Source of the DNA: Syntrophobotulus glycolicus DSM 8271
Lineage (GTDB): Bacteria > Bacillota > Desulfitobacteriia > Desulfitobacteriales > Syntrophobotulaceae
Assembly: GCF_000190635.1 (NCBI RefSeq)
Contig: NC_015172.1
Location: 62,001-126,000 of the forward strand
Direction: 5' to 3'
DNA: 64,000 nucleotides
This document shows positions 2,653 through 59,361 of this stretch, piece by piece. The position numbers and the translations under genes were made by a program. The notes below the pieces were generated by a model. That model was not told where the DNA came from. It was given only the letters and a program-made list of their open reading frames with translations, and searched no databases. Every line of letters starts with the position of its first letter. The first letter of the stretch is position 1.

Positions 2653-2702
2653 TTACTCGAAATGATAGGTTACGGAATACGTGATGTTGCTCTTGTTGTA
2701 GG
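2653..2702 (-). other. 3' exon of the SLH surface-protein gene, beyond the group II intron
   Basis: Reading leftward from the intron's 3' end there is an open stretch encoding YNKSNITYSVTYHFE and then a TAA at 2655-2653. Joining ...ATCGCTC (ending at 5163) to CCTACAACAAG (from 2702) restores one continuous frame with the large gene at 5155-9093. The AAGGAGG of the next gene follows immediately. This stretch is therefore the last 16 codons or so of the interrupted surface-protein gene. Confidence 0.75.
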
Positions 2703-2758
2703 GTAGGCAGCCAACGCCACGCCATATTTCTATGGCAGGTTTTTGTCTGCCCCCCTCC

Positions 2759-2792
2759 GAACCGTACGTACACCTTTCAATGTATACGGCTC
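2759..2792 (-). ncRNA. Group II intron domain V
   Basis: The minus strand reads GAGCCGTATAC, then a GAAA-containing loop region, then GTACGTACGGTTC. This is a 34-nt hairpin with the lower stem GAGCCGU/ACGGUUC, the 3'-side two-nucleotide bulge and a tetraloop, as in catalytic domain V of bacterial group II introns. The AGC triad is present. A domain VI-like stem (GGGGGGCAG against CTGCC) follows before the 3' end. Confidence 0.85.
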
Positions 2793-2808
2793 TCCAATTG
2801 TTTCTAAA

Positions 2809-33854: not shown

Positions 33855-34012
33855 GGTGTGCTGCGAAAGCTGGATCGGAGATGGAGGAAGGCCCTCCGGC
33901 AGGGACTGGTCAGGCGGACCTGCCAAACAACCTTCTGCTGCTGTAGCCAAAAGCTATGGTAGCGAGCGACGAAGGAAAAGTCCATAAAAAAAATGGGCAT
34001 GTAAGTTCTATT

Positions 34013-51420: not shown

Positions 51421-53460
51421 TCAGTTCAGTCCGCATAACCGGCCGACCTGAAAAATCATCAAGGCAATGATCCAGGCAGCTGTTGTTTGATAGGCGACCG
51501 CGAACAGCGTCCATTTCCAGGAATTCATTTCCCTTTTGATTGTTGCAAAAGCGGCCATGCAAGGAAGGTAGAGAACAGTAAAGGCCATAAAAGCATAAGC
51601 TTTCAGCGGGGTGAAAGTCGTTTGCAGCGAGACGATCAAGGCTGCGGAATCTTCTCCGACCTCTCCTAAGCCATGCAGGATACCTAATGTTGCCACAACT
51701 GCTTCCTTGGCGATAAAACCGGTAAGCAAAGCCACCGAGGATTGCCAGTCGTCGAAACCTAACGGCGCAAAAACAGGGGCAATAAGCCCGCCGATCAAGC
51801 CCAGCATACTTTGTGCCGGGTCCTCTACCATTTGCAGGTCAAAGCTGAAAGTTTGGGTCAGCCAAATTAAGACGGTTGCGATAAAGATAATGGTTCCCGC
51901 TTTGATCATGAAACGTTTTCCTCTGTCCCACATGTGAATCAGTATTCCTTTGGGCGTCGGGAAGCGGTAAGGCGGTAATTCCATGACAAAAGGCGCCGGT
52001 TCTCCTTTAAAGATTGTCTGCTTAAAAAGAATTCCGGATAGAATGGCCACCGCAATCCCCAAGAGGTAGATCGAGAAGATCACCAGACCTTGATTTTGGC
52101 TGAAAAACGCTGCCGTAAACAAGGCGTACACCGGCAGTCTCGCTCCGCAAGACATAAAAGGTGTCAAAATAATCGTTAACCTCCGGTCCTTTTCATTTTC
52201 CAGGGTTCTGGCGGCCATCACCGCCGGTACGCTGCAGCCGAATCCGATGATCATTGGAATAAAGGATTTGCCGCTTAACCCTAACTTGCGCAAAAGACGG
52301 TCCATGACAAAGGCCACTCTGGCCATATAGCCGGAATCCTCCAACAGGGAAATAAAGAAAAATAAGATCATAATCTGCGGGACAAAGACCATAAAGCTTC
52401 CCAGACCGGCGATAATTCCGTCCACGACCAGGGATTGCAGCCATGCGGCCACATGAGCTGACTGTAATAAGCCAGAAATAAAGCCGCCAATCGTTTCATT
52501 GATTAAGACATCTATCAGATCAATGGTAGAAGAACCGACCACGCCAAACGTGATTGCAAAGACGATATACATGACCAATAAAAATAAAGGGATCGCCACG
52601 ATCCTGTTAGTGACGACCATATCGATTTTATCGGAGGTTGTCAGCCTGCCTTCGGCGGCCTTAGATACTGCTTTAGCCGTAGTCCTGCCGATATAGCGGT
52701 ACCTGTTGTCGGCAATGACCGTCTCGATGTCGTTATCATATTCTTTCTCAATTTTTTGCTGCCAGGTCAAAGTTTCCGCTTGCAGCTCAGTAGGAATTTG
52801 GAGATCCGCCGCAACTTTTTCATCTCCCTCCAGCAGCCTTAAGGCAGTCCACCTGAGGTTCAGCGGTTTATTTTCCCGGATCCGGCCAAGATGTTCGACG
52901 ATACTCGCTATGGCATTTTCTATGGATTCGTCATAAATTTTCAGCCGGGGTGCGGCCTGCCCCACTGCTGCCGTTTCGGCCAGGGCCACCGCCTGCTGCA
53001 TCAGTTCGTCAATCCCGCGGTTTTTAGTAGCGGAAATGCCGATAAACGGTACTCCGTATTGTTTGCTCAACAAATTCAGATTAAATTTGTCTCCTCTGGC
53101 TTCAGCCTCGTCCATCATGTTGAGGGCAACCAGCAGCGGTGTTCCCAGTTCAATGAGCTGAAGGGTGAGATATAGATTTCGTTCAAGATTTGTTCCGTCC
53201 ACGATATTGATAACCAGATCCGGTTTCTCGTTCAGGATATATTCTCTGGAAATGACTTCCTCCAGGGAGTAAGGGGACAAAGAATAGATTCCCGGCAAAT
53301 CGATAATCCGGATATTCGCATGCTTTCTGACCTTGCCTTCTTTTTTTTCTACCGTGACTCCCGGCCAGTTTCCCGCATACTGAAAACTTCCGGTGAGGGT
53401 ATTAAACAACGTAGTCTTGCCTGCATTGGGATTTCCCGCCAGGGCAAATGTTAAAGACAT
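51421..53460 (-). CDS. feoB: Ferrous iron transporter FeoB
   Basis: 679 residues. A GTPase domain has G1 GNPNAGKTTLFNTLTG (residues 8-23), G2 region TVEKKEGK, G3 DLPGIYSLSP and G4 NMMDEAE. A helical GDI-like region (~150-250) precedes the membrane part with two Gate motifs (FVPQIMILFFFISLLEDSGY MARVAF and PFMSCGARLPVYALF). It imports Fe2+ across the membrane. It is the last gene of a feoA-feoA-feoB run on the minus strand. Confidence 0.96.
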   Translation of the reverse strand: MSLTFALAGNPNAGKTTLFNTLTGSFQYAGNWPGVTVEKKEGKVRKHANIRIIDLPGIYSLSPYSLEEVISREYILNEKPDLVINIVDGTNLERNLYLTLQLIELGTPLLVALNMMDEAEARGDKFNLNLLSKQYGVPFIGISATKNRGIDELMQQAVALAETAAVGQAAPRLKIYDESIENAIASIVEHLGRIRENKPLNLRWTALRLLEGDEKVAADLQIPTELQAETLTWQQKIEKEYDNDIETVIADNRYRYIGRTTAKAVSKAAEGRLTTSDKIDMVVTNRIVAIPLFLLVMYIVFAITFGVVGSSTIDLIDVLINETIGGFISGLLQSAHVAAWLQSLVVDGIIAGLGSFMVFVPQIMILFFFISLLEDSGYMARVAFVMDRLLRKLGLSGKSFIPMIIGFGCSVPAVMAARTLENEKDRRLTIILTPFMSCGARLPVYALFTAAFFSQNQGLVIFSIYLLGIAVAILSGILFKQTIFKGEPAPFVMELPPYRFPTPKGILIHMWDRGKRFMIKAGTIIFIATVLIWLTQTFSFDLQMVEDPAQSMLGLIGGLIAPVFAPLGFDDWQSSVALLTGFIAKEAVVATLGILHGLGEVGEDSAALIVSLQTTFTPLKAYAFMAFTVLYLPCMAAFATIKREMNSWKWTLFAVAYQTTAAWIIALMIFQVGRLCGLN

Positions 53461-53491: not shown

Positions 53492-53716
53492 TTAATTGAC
53501 TAATATTTGTTTCGCATCCTCTTTTCTTAAGGTTAATTCATAGCTCCGGATATTGACTTCAATGGGATCACCCAATGGTGCGACTTTTCTGACCAGAATA
53601 TCCGTGCCGGAAGTAATGCCCATGTCCGTCAGCCTTCTTTTTACCGGTCCTTTACCGCTGATTTTAATGATCACCGATCTCTCTCCCGGTTTCAGGTCGT
53701 TCAATGTCCTTGCCAA
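53492..53716 (-). CDS. feoA: FeoA-like SH3 protein (copy nearest feoB)
   Basis: 74 residues of the FeoA fold: LNDLKPGERSVIIKISGKG, then RRLTDMGITSGTDILVRKVA, IEVNIRSYELTLRKEDAKQI. It is a small cytosolic partner thought to regulate FeoB. AAGGAGG precedes the start. Confidence 0.92.
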   Translation of the reverse strand: MARTLNDLKPGERSVIIKISGKGPVKRRLTDMGITSGTDILVRKVAPLGDPIEVNIRSYELTLRKEDAKQILVN

Positions 53717-53729
53717 AATATTTTCCTCC

Positions 53730-53951
53730 TTATCGGTTTTGTCGAATGATTAATTGCTGGGCCAGGCCTTTGCTGAGAGCGATTCTTGCTCCTTTGACGC
53801 TTAGGATGATGTTCCCGTTGATTTCATTGATAATGGAAACCGTCACTCCCGGAACAATCCCCAGGTTTTCCAGAAACCTTTTGCTGGATTCCTGAGCCCG
53901 GCATTCCACAATAAGACCTTCTTCTCCCGGATTTAACATGGTTAGAGGCAT
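53730..53951 (-). CDS. feoA: FeoA-like SH3 protein (first copy)
   Basis: 73 residues: MLNPGEEGLIVECRAQESSK, RFLENLGIVPGVTVSIINEI, ILSVKGARIALSKGLAQQLI. It is only distantly related to the other FeoA, so the duplication is old. It lies 36 bases after the diguanylate cyclase stop, which suggests one four-gene transcript. Confidence 0.9.
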   Translation of the reverse strand: MPLTMLNPGEEGLIVECRAQESSKRFLENLGIVPGVTVSIINEINGNIILSVKGARIALSKGLAQQLIIRQNR

Positions 53952-53987: not shown

Positions 53988-55097
53988 TCAGGCGCTATCG
54001 TCCGTAATCTGAACCAGTTCAGGAGAACACAGAATCCGGTTCTTTCCCTGTCCTTTTGCCTGATAAAGGAGCTGGTCAACACAGGTAAAGAGCTCATTGT
54101 TCTTATAGCGGGGCTCCATGCAGATTCCTCCCGCAACGCCGCCGCTGATCGTTACCTGGATGATTTGGTTGTCAAACACGAATTCATGCCCCGCGATTAG
54201 GTTCCGAATCCTTTCACAGACCGCGTTCCCGATTTCGGGCAGAGTATCGGGGAAGATGATCGCAAATTCTTCTCCGCCGTAACGGGCGGCCACATCGTTT
54301 TTGCGCACATTGGCCTGAATCAGAGCGGAAATCTTTTGCAAAACCTGATCTCCGGCCAGGTGTCCATATGTATCGTTGATTTTTTTAAAGTTATCGATGT
54401 CCAGAAGGGCCAGGCTCAAAGAATTCTGGGATTCATAAGAACGGGTAATGATTTCCTTGTAATAGATATAAAAGGTTTTGTGATTATATAGGCTGGTTAA
54501 ATAGTCCTTGCTTACCATTTCGTTGAGCAGGGAGTTCTTATGCTCCAAATCTTCATTCATATAGCATAATCTGCCGACAAGCCGGTTGATCTCATGATTG
54601 ACAACCCCCATGATATAACCCAGTAAAAAAAACAGCAGAATCTGGACAATCACAACCGGTGTAAACAAAGCTGTACGGTCCTGCAGCACGGCCACAGAGA
54701 CATAACACAAGGCCACAAAAGAACTGCAGGCCAAGGGACGCTTGTGCTGAAAAAGGATAATCAGTAAAACAAGATAGATGCAGAACATTTGCGCCAGGAT
54801 CGGGAAAAGATCCCGGGCAAAATATAAAAAAGCACTCAGGAAGATTCCGTCAATCAGAATACTCCAGAGAAACGGCCGAAAGTTTTTTTCCTCTTTTTTA
54901 AAGTAAACTTTGTTCACAAAACAGATTACTTTGAGAACGACAAGCACAGTATAGACAGCCATAAAAACCAAATAAGGGATATGATCATTCTGAAGCAAAT
55001 ACAGATAAAAAACAACGGTACCAAAGATCGTCATAACCTGAAGAAAGAGATAGAATTCCAAAATCGCTTTCAAACGGAATTCTTGAATACTATTCAA
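53988..55097 (-). CDS. Membrane diguanylate cyclase (GGDEF)
   Basis: About 369 residues: six membrane helices (~20-190, e.g. YLVFMAVYTVLVVLKVICFV), a short coiled linker (NEDLEHKNSLLNEMVSK) and a GGDEF domain (YLTSLYNHKTFYIYY ... LLDIDNFKKINDTYGHLAGD) with the active signature GGEEF and an RKND inhibitory site five residues before it. It makes c-di-GMP. I prefer the TTG at 55097 because AGGAG is well spaced; a TTG nine codons earlier is possible. Its promoter (TTGACA 55193-55188, TATAAT 55171-55166) overlaps a 30-bp palindrome. Likely cotranscribed with feoA-feoA-feoB. Confidence 0.9.
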   Translation of the reverse strand: MNSIQEFRLKAILEFYLFLQVMTIFGTVVFYLYLLQNDHIPYLVFMAVYTVLVVLKVICFVNKVYFKKEEKNFRPFLWSILIDGIFLSAFLYFARDLFPILAQMFCIYLVLLIILFQHKRPLACSSFVALCYVSVAVLQDRTALFTPVVIVQILLFFLLGYIMGVVNHEINRLVGRLCYMNEDLEHKNSLLNEMVSKDYLTSLYNHKTFYIYYKEIITRSYESQNSLSLALLDIDNFKKINDTYGHLAGDQVLQKISALIQANVRKNDVAARYGGEEFAIIFPDTLPEIGNAVCERIRNLIAGHEFVFDNQIIQVTISGGVAGGICMEPRYKNNELFTCVDQLLYQAKGQGKNRILCSPELVQITDDSA

Positions 55098-55142
55098 ATT
55101 CTCATCTCCTATCTCTATCCTCAAATGACGGATTCATATCCA

Positions 55143-55172
55143 TTATAATGTTAGACCTTTCTAACATTATAA
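55143..55172. promoter_or_regulatory. Operator palindrome over the promoter of the cyclase-feo operon
   Basis: TTATAATGTTAGA-CCTT-TCTAACATTATAA, two perfect 13-base arms. On the minus strand TATAAT inside it is a -10 box, 16 bases from TTGACA. The core GTTAGA-N4-TCTAAC recurs in the same position at the divergent promoter, so a dimeric repressor is expected; a DtxR/MntR-type metal regulator would fit the iron genes. Confidence 0.7.
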
Positions 55173-55251
55173 CTCTTTTTCTCTTGCTGTCAAGTCAATA
55201 TTCTACTTTATTCATTTCCTTTTTACTTCTAGTGACAGGCAAATGATTATG

Positions 55252-55274
55252 TTATAATGTTAGATATATCTAAC
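55252..55274 (+). promoter_or_regulatory. Operator over the promoter of the EAL gene
   Basis: TTATAATGTTAGA-TATA-TCTAAC. TATAAT at 55253-55258 is the -10 box with GTGACA about 15 bases before it. The half-sites GTTAGA/TCTAAC and their spacing equal those at 55150-55165. Confidence 0.65.
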
Positions 55275-55288
55275 CCGGGAGGATAGCT

Positions 55289-57106
55289 TTGAATAACCGT
55301 TCTAGCCGTGCGTCACAAAAATTGACCGAGCAATCCGACCCTGGCGGAAGCAATGCTGAACAGATCAGACAAAACAGCATACAACCGGACATGATTTCAA
55401 TGATCCTCCAAATTGCAGGTATTTATTATCATGCGGCCAGGGCTTATGTTGTTGAATTTTCAGAATGGGACGGGTCTGTCGTCAACATTTACTCCTGGTG
55501 CGGAGCCGGTGTCGCCCCAGATCTATCCCAGCTGAGAAATTGCACGACTGAAGACTGGGAGAGGCATATGCAGCGCTTCAATGATCAAGGAATTTATATC
55601 GGCTACTTTCCTCCGGACGCCGGTATTCTTTCTTGCGAAGCAACCTTTTCCCTCCAATGCGCTATTAGGAATCAGCAGCGGCTTTTAGGGCTGATCATAC
55701 TTGGTGATTATACGCCAAGCCGGACCTGGACCAGACATCAGACCGATACCCTGGTCGTTATCTCCAAAATCATCAGCGATCATTTCATTCATCTGCAAAC
55801 CCTGCAAAAACTTCAAAAGGTTGCTTCTACCGATATTTTGACCGGTGTGCATAATTTTGAAGCTTTTCACACAGAAATGGAAAAGTTAATCAGCCGGCAT
55901 AAAGAAAAAAAATATGCGATCATTACCTGTGACATCGAACAATTCAAGGATATTAATGATACGCTCGGCCATGATAATGGAGACAGGGTGATTAGGAACC
56001 TGGCCTGCTCCATCCGAGACGGGCTGACTGATGTTGAACTGATCGGCCGGGTTTCAGGAGATATTTTTATGGTTCTGGCCGAATATGAAAGCCAGGCTAC
56101 CTTTCTGAAACGCCTGAAGCAGTGGCATAATGGCTTCGCGGCGTTGAACCGTTCTCTGCAGCCGGCGGTGGAAATATGTGTCGCGGTGGGCATTTATCTG
56201 ATCCAACCGGAGGATACGGTGATCTCCTCTCTGATCGATAAAGCCAATGCGGCCCGCAAATTAGCCAAAGGCAATAGAAAAAGTACGCTTTTCTTTTATA
56301 ACGCCTCCTTGCATCAGCAGCTGATGCTGGTCAAAGAGTTGGAACTTTCCATGCTCTCATCTTTGCAAAACGGGAACTTTATGATTTTCCTGCAACCCAA
56401 ATACAAGCTTAGCGGGCGGACAATCGAAGGAGCGGAGGCGCTGGTGCGTTGGGATCATCCAAACCTGGGCTTTCTTTTGCCTGCCGATTTCATTCCTCAT
56501 TTGGAAAAAAACAGGTTTATTCTGGATCTCGATTTTTATGTTTTTGAAAAAATTTGCTTGCTGCTGAAAACCTGGATTGCCGGCCATAAACCTGTCATTC
56601 CCATTTCCGTCAACTTTTCCAGGCTCCATTTGCTTACCCGCGATTTCACGGCCCGGCTGATCAGCATCATGCAAAGCTACGGAATTCCGCCTAATCTTTT
56701 GGAAATTGAGCTGACAGAAAGCGCTTTTATCGACCAATCTGTTGATCTCCTCAAGGTGGCCTATAGCTTAAAAAAGCAGGGAATGACTATTTCTATGGAT
56801 GATTTTGGCTCAGGGTACTCTTCATTGCTTGCGCTAAAGGACCTGCCGGTTGACGTATTAAAGCTGGATAAGGGATTTTTCAGTAAGGGTTTAATCACGA
56901 ATAAAGATGAGATTATTATCCGGGGCTTCGTAAAAATGGCCAAGCAATTGCATCTGCGTGTGGTCTCTGAGGGAATTGAAACCGCGAAGCAGGCTGATTT
57001 TTTAGAAGAGATTGGCTGTGACCTGGCTCAAGGATATTACTTTTCCAAACCGCTTCCGGTCAGGGGATTTGAAGCGCTGCTGGCGAATGAACTGCTCACG
57101 TCATAA
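55289..57106 (+). CDS. EAL-domain c-di-GMP phosphodiesterase with a degenerate GGDEF domain
   Basis: 605 residues. A GAF-like sensor (~30-180, cytoplasmic) is followed by a GGDEF domain whose signature is SGDIF instead of GGDEF (~255), so it cannot make c-di-GMP and may bind GTP as regulator. The EAL domain (~345-600) has GAEALVRWDHP, NFSRLHLL, ELTESAF, SMDDFGSGYSSL and KLDKGFF, with all metal and catalytic residues expected. It should cleave c-di-GMP. Starts at TTG with GGGAGG 7 nt upstream. Divergent from the cyclase and under the same operator. Confidence 0.9.
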   Translation: MNNRSSRASQKLTEQSDPGGSNAEQIRQNSIQPDMISMILQIAGIYYHAARAYVVEFSEWDGSVVNIYSWCGAGVAPDLSQLRNCTTEDWERHMQRFNDQGIYIGYFPPDAGILSCEATFSLQCAIRNQQRLLGLIILGDYTPSRTWTRHQTDTLVVISKIISDHFIHLQTLQKLQKVASTDILTGVHNFEAFHTEMEKLISRHKEKKYAIITCDIEQFKDINDTLGHDNGDRVIRNLACSIRDGLTDVELIGRVSGDIFMVLAEYESQATFLKRLKQWHNGFAALNRSLQPAVEICVAVGIYLIQPEDTVISSLIDKANAARKLAKGNRKSTLFFYNASLHQQLMLVKELELSMLSSLQNGNFMIFLQPKYKLSGRTIEGAEALVRWDHPNLGFLLPADFIPHLEKNRFILDLDFYVFEKICLLLKTWIAGHKPVIPISVNFSRLHLLTRDFTARLISIMQSYGIPPNLLEIELTESAFIDQSVDLLKVAYSLKKQGMTISMDDFGSGYSSLLALKDLPVDVLKLDKGFFSKGLITNKDEIIIRGFVKMAKQLHLRVVSEGIETAKQADFLEEIGCDLAQGYYFSKPLPVRGFEALLANELLTS

Positions 57107-57222: not shown

Positions 57223-57534
57223 CTACGACTTGTCTTTTAATTGATCAATCTCTTCCTCAACTTCCTCGGCCCCTTCCAAATAGAAATTTTCTTCGTCGGG
57301 AGCAAGCTCTTTCAATAGTCTTAAAAATTCTCCCGCATGAACTCTTTCTTCATCGGCGATATCTTTTAAAACCTCTATAGCCAATTTGTTATCGGTTGAT
57401 TCAGCCAGCTGCATATAAAGCTGGATCGCTTCATATTCCGCAGAAACCATAAAACGAATCGCTCGGATTAATTCTTGTTCAGTGAGCTTGCGGTCGTTAG
57501 CAAGACCGGAAAATGGGTTACCGAAATCAGGCAT
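57223..57534 (-). CDS. Ferritin-like protein, encapsulin-cargo type
   Basis: 103 residues: LTEQELIRAIRFMVSAEYEA then IADEERVHAGEFLRLL, giving the E-x-x-H pattern of the ferritin-like four-helix family, and an acidic C-terminal tail. It resembles the ferritin-like domain fused to or packed in archaeal and clostridial encapsulins, which oxidises and stores iron. AAGGAGG is best spaced from the ATG at 57534. No encapsulin gene is in the window. It fits the iron theme of the neighbourhood. Confidence 0.8.
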   Translation of the reverse strand: MPDFGNPFSGLANDRKLTEQELIRAIRFMVSAEYEAIQLYMQLAESTDNKLAIEVLKDIADEERVHAGEFLRLLKELAPDEENFYLEGAEEVEEEIDQLKDKS

Positions 57535-57739
57535 GGCCATTCCTCCTTGATATATTATTTTCCTTAAGCCAAATCCTGAAGACATGGCTAAGGGTTTATC
57601 ACCGGTTTCTTTTTCTAAAGAAAACAGGTCGATTCTTTAGAAAATAAAATGATTACCGTTCTTGATTTTGTGGTTTTTTGATATTATTGTATAATGTTTA
57701 TCCTATAACGTCAATTTGTCTGAGTGTTATGATCGTGTC

Positions 57740-57769: not shown

Positions 57770-57840
57770 AAATACGCTAAAGGCAACAAAGACGTTGAGC
57801 AAACATCTTGGGCCTTTTTTTAATTTTTGGGGGGAGAGAA

Positions 57841-59361
57841 ATGATTATACTTTATTTATCAGCAATCATTTTCATCATTTTCATATTAGGGATTTGGCTG
57901 AAAAAACAAATCAAGTTGCTCAACTGTTTACTGCAGGAACTGGTTAAGGGGAATTATACATACGAGCTGAAAATAGAGAAAAATAACTTTGTATTCAAAC
58001 GTTCTCTTCCTCTGATAGATGAACTTAAAGCGAAACTCTTGTCCCATAGTTTTGAGGTTCAGGTAGCATCTACCCAAATCGATGCAGTATCCCGGCAATT
58101 GTCAACAAATCTGACGGAATGCAACTCATTTGCGCAGCAGCTCTATGCTCAGGCGGATTATACTGTGCAAAACAATGAAAACAGTCAGGAAAAGCTTCAT
58201 ATGGTTCTGAATTCTGTAAAAACCCTTATTCAGAGACTGGAGAATGTTAAGGAAACATCAGCCGAAATGTTAACAACGAGTAATGAATCTGAACAAGTAA
58301 TTGTTGATGGGTTACAGGGGGTAATGGAGATTGTTCAAATCATTAATCGCGTTAACCAGTCCAGTCTGGTTCTGATATCCAATATTAATGAATTTAAAAA
58401 GACCTTTCAGGATATCTCCAACATATTACAGGCGGTAGATGAGATCGCTAATCAGACTAATTTACTATCTTTAAATGCAGCCATAGAGTCCGCTAGAGCA
58501 GGTGAACATGGCAGGGGCTTTAGTGTTGTTGCTGAGGAGATCCGCAAATTATCTGATCATAGTAAAACAGCAGTATCCCAAATCACCGGTCTGATTTCTA
58601 AAATGGATATGGATGTGAGAGATGTCACCAATACAATGGATGCCAACAGAAATGATGTCAATACGGGCGTAACACTTTCAGAGGAGATTGAAAAGAGCCT
58701 GCACCAAATCCAGGAATCATACAGTAAGGTACATCGCCTGATTCAGTCTGTGATTAATATTACGGATGAGGAATATAAGAACGCTTCAACGATCGGGAAG
58801 AATGTCGATGAGGTCGAAAGTACGGTAGAACAAGTGAATTTGGGTTTTAAAGGGATTTATGATGCGATTCAAAAGCAATCTGAAAGCATCAATGAAATTA
58901 ACCTGCTGTCCAATAATCTTCTGGAATCCCAAGATGGGCTATCCAAATTGGTAGAATCAAGCCAGTATTCATTAGAGCTTGACCGGGAAGGCTTCAAGGA
59001 AAATGGAGCTACGATCATAAAAATGATTAAGGAAGAAATCTTAGATCAGACGCAAATCCAAATGGAACAACCTATAGTAAAGAATATACTGGATAATTTT
59101 TTAGGAAAACATGTTAATCTGGAAGCAATCTGGATTAATGATGAGCAGGGGAAGTTTCTTTACTCTAATCCTCCTGCGAAAATAGCCAATGCCAAGATCC
59201 GTGAATGGTTTCAAAAAAGTATCCGCGGGGAGGAGTTTATTTCAGATATCTATGTATCTGCCATTACCAAGAATCCATGCTTAACAGTATCACTACCGGT
59301 AAAGAATCAAACCGGAGAATATATTGGAGTGATTGGAGCCGATCTGGGCCTGCAGCGCTAA
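57841..59361 (+). CDS. Methyl-accepting chemotaxis protein with a C-terminal sensor-like domain
   Basis: 506 residues. One N-terminal membrane helix ([18 protein letters not shown]), no periplasmic domain, then the MA signalling domain with the hairpin tip [29 protein letters not shown]-type sequence (here [20 protein letters not shown], ~200-220). After the hairpin comes a ~100-residue C-terminal domain ([38 protein letters not shown]) that looks like the membrane-distal half of a Cache sensor. Having the sensor behind the signalling domain and in the cytoplasm is unusual. GGGGGGAGAG fits the ATG at 57841. Confidence 0.9.

Follow-up and report, generated by a model that had tools for sequence, protein, structure and literature searches.

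Links between the Fur regulator and cyclic di-GMP (c-di-GMP) are known in proteobacteria, and in Vibrio cholerae Fur acts directly on cdgD and vieSAB (PMC7641913). For the DtxR family, the single-dimer half site of IdeR is TTAGG-N4-CCTAA; IdeR tolerates a C1-to-T change, and the resulting TCTAA repeats (TTAGA) are bound with a KD of about 70 nM (PMC8464063). A DtxR-type regulator tied to a diguanylate cyclase (DGC) was not found in the literature searched, outside which lie most subscription journals.

In the window, the whole analysed stretch of 64,000 nt from the anaerobic sludge bacterium Syntrophobotulus glycolicus DSM 8271, two genes for predicted c-di-GMP enzymes face away from each other, and each promoter is followed by a putative operator. 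The corresponding features are as follows:
55150..55165, operator 1, GTTAGACCTTTCTAAC, exact GTTAGA-N4-TCTAAC
55259..55274, operator 2, GTTAGATATATCTAAC, exact GTTAGA-N4-TCTAAC
55166..55193, minus strand, predicted promoter of the DGC-feo genes, sigma-A type, TTGACA-N16-TATAAT, 12/12 match
55232..55258, plus strand, predicted phosphodiesterase promoter, GTGACA-N15-TATAAT, weak -35, TGn extended -10
53988..55097, minus strand, diguanylate cyclase with GGEEF domain, TTG start after AGGAG, reading frame opening at 55124
53730..53951, minus strand, first feoA, starting 36 nt past the DGC stop
53492..53716, minus strand, second feoA
51421..53460, minus strand, feoB
55289..57106, plus strand, c-di-GMP phosphodiesterase with degenerate GGDEF (SGDIF) and EAL domains, TTG start after GGGAGG

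The first-pass annotation had proposed that the two divergent promoters carry GTTAGA-N4-TCTAAC, and both copies are indeed exact; the perfect 13-nt arms that it described for one site belong to operator 1 (55143-55155 and 55160-55172). It had also placed the motif at the same position over the -10 box of both promoters. The position is the same in both, but the motif starts at the base next to the -10 box rather than over it: the leftward -10 ends at 55166 and is directly abutted by operator 1, while the rightward extended -10 TGTTATAAT occupies 55250-55258 and operator 2 begins at the next base. Both operators run across the predicted +1. No third copy with up to one mismatch occurs in the 64 kb, where chance would give 0.005 exact copies (P about 1e-5 for a pair). 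A positional weight matrix (PWM) built from the other 24 boxes of the genome scores operator 1 at 25.4 and operator 2 at 20.8, the best non-box site in the window reaching 4.6. Overlap with the promoter accounts for the departure of the window operators from the usual A/T flank. The stretch TTATAATGTTAGA-N4-TCTAAC is 87% identical between sites 1 and 2 and looks as if it had been copied from one to the other.

Both enzymes are predicted to be active. The cyclase, which has a hydrophobic multi-helix N-terminal region, combines the GGEEF signature, invariant in four orthologues, with an RKND I-site (RxxD). The rightward gene had been annotated as a phosphodiesterase, which agrees with its degenerate-GGDEF and EAL architecture: aligned with the solved structure 4rni, the EAL domain has the EAL motif together with the catalytic Asn, Glu, Asp-Asp, Lys, Glu and Gln residues. 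The N-terminal region of the phosphodiesterase has no Pfam match, and structure models of the DGC and of this N-terminal region (mean pLDDT 47 and 41, respectively) are too poor for use. No orthologue of the EAL protein occurs among 60 relatives (best identity 29%). Near the phosphodiesterase gene lie a rubrerythrin-like protein (57223-57585, minus strand) and a methyl-accepting chemotaxis protein with a C-terminal Cache-like domain (57808-59361, plus strand), both without an iron box. Elsewhere in the window, Rfam group II intron matches are located at 33883-34001 (plus strand) and 2698-2794 (minus strand).

A scan of the S. glycolicus genome (labelled G000; 3,406,739 bp) revealed 14 exact copies of GTTAGA-N4-TCTAAC, compared with 0.26 expected and none for the reversed control, so that the motif is not distributed at random. 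The looser pattern GTTAG-N6-CTAAC occurs 26 times (3.7 expected; reversed control, 5), and by simple ORF calls all 26 boxes are intergenic, the coding fraction of the genome being 87.8% (PMC3156405). Read from the loci around the boxes, the targets include feoAB at three loci besides the window (a fourth feoAB locus follows a variant box) and ahpC-ahpF (AhpC/AhpF). Others encode secreted NEAT-like proteins and CWB2 surface proteins, of which one contains a Shr haem-binding module (Shr-HID). Transport is represented by a NikA/CntA-like metallophore-type importer, oligopeptide-type permeases, ECF S components with CbiO, and pairs of ABC exporters whose neighbours are TetR or AraC regulators. Judged by its sequence distribution, the motif is a real regulon box and the box set is an iron regulon of which the DGC and phosphodiesterase promoters are both members. 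The proposal of a DtxR-family-type operator common to both promoters, within an iron-acquisition regulon, is thereby supported. In Desulfosporosinus (G050) and in G021, G031 and G049, this box also stands upstream of genes for ECF transporters and ABC exporters, of metallophore-type genes and of feoA and feoB, these targets being named by sequence resemblance only. The 38 copies of GTTAG-N6-CTAAC in G031 were set aside, being mostly GTTAGC-N4-GCTAAC, a different element.

The variant box, GTTAGCCTGGGCTAAC, is located at genome positions 2944633-2944648 (L069 6634), upstream of a further feoA-feoB pair in the vicinity of an MntR-like gene. G032 also contains sequences of this kind, and G031 has many in the form GTTAGC-N4-GCTAAC; they are possibly sites of another regulator or a repeat element. 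Three tandem genes for NEAT-like/surface proteins (genome 1483354, 1485223 and 1486404; L022 12356-12545, 14225-14405 and 15405-15625) each have an iron box and, after it, a leader of ~190 nt. These leaders have a CTCCGGAGC-like element in common, and no Rfam family matches them at the gathering threshold.

Five DtxR-family matches were identified in the S. glycolicus genome, along with three Fur-family proteins. Two of the former are candidates for the repressor:
1505462-1505839 (genome), DtxR-family protein, 125/127-aa pair
1598578-1598961 (genome), DtxR-family protein, 125/127-aa pair

Both candidates contain DACAIEH, which supplies the Cys, Glu and His of the DtxR primary metal site, carry Asn at the DtxR Met10 position, and end after the dimerisation domain, the C-terminal SH3-like domain being absent. 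Their genes come last in runs preceded by a box, ahpC-ahpF-dtxR (box 1508421) and ABC-ABC-dtxR for the paralogue (box 1594794), and a box also stands before the orthologous dtxR in D. hippei, Desulfosporosinus sp. SRJS8 and G040; thus, the candidate genes are apparently autoregulated. Among 61 genomes, whose members are relatives and not independent, the exact motif is found in 6 of the 11 that encode this DtxR (at least 60% identity) vs 4 of the 50 that do not (Fisher P=0.001); this co-occurrence counts as support and not as proof. The first-pass annotation had left the metal as iron or manganese. The other box targets and the Cys/Glu/His metal site of the candidate favour iron. Given this regulon and the Cys ligand, we infer that iron is the effector.

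Within the genome collection, proteins closely related to the cyclase (58-61% identity) are encoded only in D. hippei, D. fructosivorans and D. sp. SRJS8, in each case at an iron locus. In D. hippei the gene order is dtxR (divergent), box, DGC, feoA, (box), feoB, and the promoter-operator unit of the window is preserved before the orthologous cyclase: TTGACA-N17-TAAAAT abuts GTTAGACAGATCTAAC, with GTTAGA-N4-TCTAAC directly after the -10 box. None of the other scanned boxes has its best -10 match at this abutting offset. The D. hippei box, about 180 nt before DGC, is the sole exact motif in a genome of 4.9 Mb. D. fructosivorans (6.1 Mb) likewise has a single exact motif, 0.86 kb upstream of DGC and between a DtxR gene and a gene that comes ahead of DGC, so that one gene separates box from cyclase. 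In SRJS8, 1.8 kb separate the DGC gene from feoB and about 7 kb separate it from dtxR; there is no good DtxR box at this DGC and instead the locus contains Fur-box-like sites:
L068 4068-4082, Fur-box-like site
L068 4284-4298, Fur-box-like site
L068 5411-5431, Fur-box-like site

Ahead of the gene cluster whose last member is DGC stand two single-mismatch Fur boxes (0.01 expected per 12 kb), with a weaker site immediately upstream of DGC itself; the iron regulator has possibly been swapped for the same cyclase. At the D. hippei DGC-feo locus, a perfect 7-1-7 Fur box (TGATAATAATTATCA; L066 3535-3549) is also present near a NifX-like gene. The window feoB and the feoB near DGC in D. hippei and SRJS8 are separate paralogues (38-39% identity), which implies that the cyclase became linked with iron genes on more than one occasion or moved among them. 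By this comparison of loci, the conserved target is the cyclase, and the phosphodiesterase is a species-specific addition.

The nature of the box and of its binding protein allows several readings. That the sites are chance or purely structural palindromes (a hairpin or terminator) that no regulator binds has almost nothing to recommend it beyond the perfect 13-bp stem of site 1, given the genome-wide excess, the intergenic placement before iron genes, the conserved promoter geometry and the divergent promoters, between which a terminator would have no role. A TetR- or AraC-type regulator, reporting siderophore or haem rather than iron itself, is encoded next to about half of the boxes. It is, however, a very improbable binder: the window, the NEAT cluster and the feoB box at 1548908 all lack such a gene next to them, the box recurs before dtxR and feo in other genera, and its layout is that of DtxR sites. 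TetR/AraC proteins were rejected as the binder since they are not common to the boxes. A manganese-responsive (MntR-type) repressor, under which both enzymes and feo would follow Mn2+, is an improbable but more serious candidate. For the candidate regulators, the highest-scoring models are those of E. coli-type MntR, although below the cut-off, and their Asn at the Met10 position is shared with TroR, a regulator that responds to both Mn and Fe (PMC2628430). Nevertheless, the box targets are haem, siderophore and Fe2+ systems, the DACAIEH Cys stands in the metal site as in iron-type DtxR, and separate MntR-like proteins with Glu at the Cys place are encoded at genome 1512022 and 2941610, one of them beside a Mn/Zn-type ABC transporter. 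Manganese is thus placed below iron.

The extent of the leftward transcription unit is a separate matter. The cyclase and feoAAB could be independent units, with the operator controlling the cyclase only and the short gap between them accidental; the adjoining feoB is not the orthologue of the DGC-linked feoB in D. hippei and SRJS8, and the D. hippei feoB has its own box. We regard this arrangement as unlikely. The interval of 36 bases that had been noted between the cyclase and feoA-feoA-feoB is exact (DGC stop at 53988, feoA ATG at 53951) and contains neither a promoter-like site nor a box, only a weak 9/12 promoter match precedes the second feoA, and the order DGC-feoA-feoB recurs in D. hippei. 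A single DGC-feoA-feoA-feoB transcript is plausible, no internal promoter being seen.

Taken as operators of a DtxR-family iron repressor, the two sites likely bring both genes under DtxR-type iron repression. Under iron sufficiency, a metal-loaded repressor dimer, presumably one of the 125/127-aa proteins with Fe2+ as corepressor, would occupy TTAGA-N4-TCTAA downstream of each -10 box, over the transcription start, and would block RNA polymerase. When iron falls, the repressor would be released and the membrane DGC made alongside other iron-uptake systems, probably on one transcript with feoA-feoA-feoB. The same release would allow synthesis of the EAL phosphodiesterase from the facing promoter, and this enzyme may limit or localise the signal. 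Because the cyclase and the phosphodiesterase are under the same operator, the direction of a net change in c-di-GMP is not predictable; it could be of either sign or nil, and the earlier statement that metal status sets the c-di-GMP level is too strong.

The S. glycolicus genome contains ten c-di-GMP-I riboswitches, whose neighbours include HD-GYP, CWB2, cellulase-like and kinase genes. Their presence indicates that c-di-GMP is in use and would make the output readable directly. At the gathering threshold, no c-di-GMP riboswitch was detected before window or box-bearing genes in the six loci scanned. The nearest one, c-di-GMP-I(-GGC) at genome 1516492-1516575 (L122 493-576), is 4.6 kb from an iron box; it lies before a CWB2/peptidase M15 surface protein gene and behind a Mn/Zn-type ABC transporter.

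On balance, we favour the view that, in anaerobic Bacillota, a feo-operonic cyclase and a c-di-GMP-degrading enzyme are under the direct, joint control of a DtxR-type iron regulator acting via a duplicated promoter-operator unit. On this view, selection has favoured iron control of the cyclase, which persists in Desulfosporosinus through the promoter-operator unit or, as it appears for one strain, through Fur boxes. The switch held in common with the iron-uptake genes suggests that iron supply feeds into the c-di-GMP signal. If true, this would assign a specific signal to two members of the large set of GGDEF/EAL genes with unknown inputs, and would extend iron control of c-di-GMP from Fur and proteobacteria to a DtxR-type regulator and Gram-positive anaerobes.

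Both window sites contain the TTAGR-N4-YCTAA dyad of a single-dimer DtxR-type site. The boxes are non-random, intergenic and located before metal-uptake genes, and the genome encodes a DtxR-family gene that is apparently autoregulated and co-occurs with the motif in relatives. The system resembles the actinobacterial DtxR/IdeR iron box in its TTAG(R) half-site dyad with 4-nt spacing, in its iron uptake genes and in its cognate DtxR-family gene. It differs in having only the single-dimer dyad, with A/T for a G/C pair: across the 26 boxes, the outer TTAGG/CCTAA repeat of the canonical 19-bp two-dimer box TTAGGTTAGSCTAACCTAA is not conserved. The candidate protein, in turn, differs from DtxR/IdeR in its missing SH3 domain and in Asn for Met10. 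As short two-domain DtxR-family proteins, the candidates are similar in length to MntR of Bacillus subtilis and E. coli; however, MntR has Asp/Glu manganese ligands and Mn transporter targets, whereas the candidates have Cys at the Glu99/Cys102 place. The V. cholerae Fur case is alike in regulator type (an iron-sensor family) and in that the regulator targets a GGDEF gene and an EAL-encoding operon directly. Fur, however, is not of the DtxR family, and it acts there on separate loci with opposite signs, reportedly independently of iron, without a link to feo; in S. glycolicus, by contrast, divergent promoters carry a duplicated operator and the cyclase is joined to feo.
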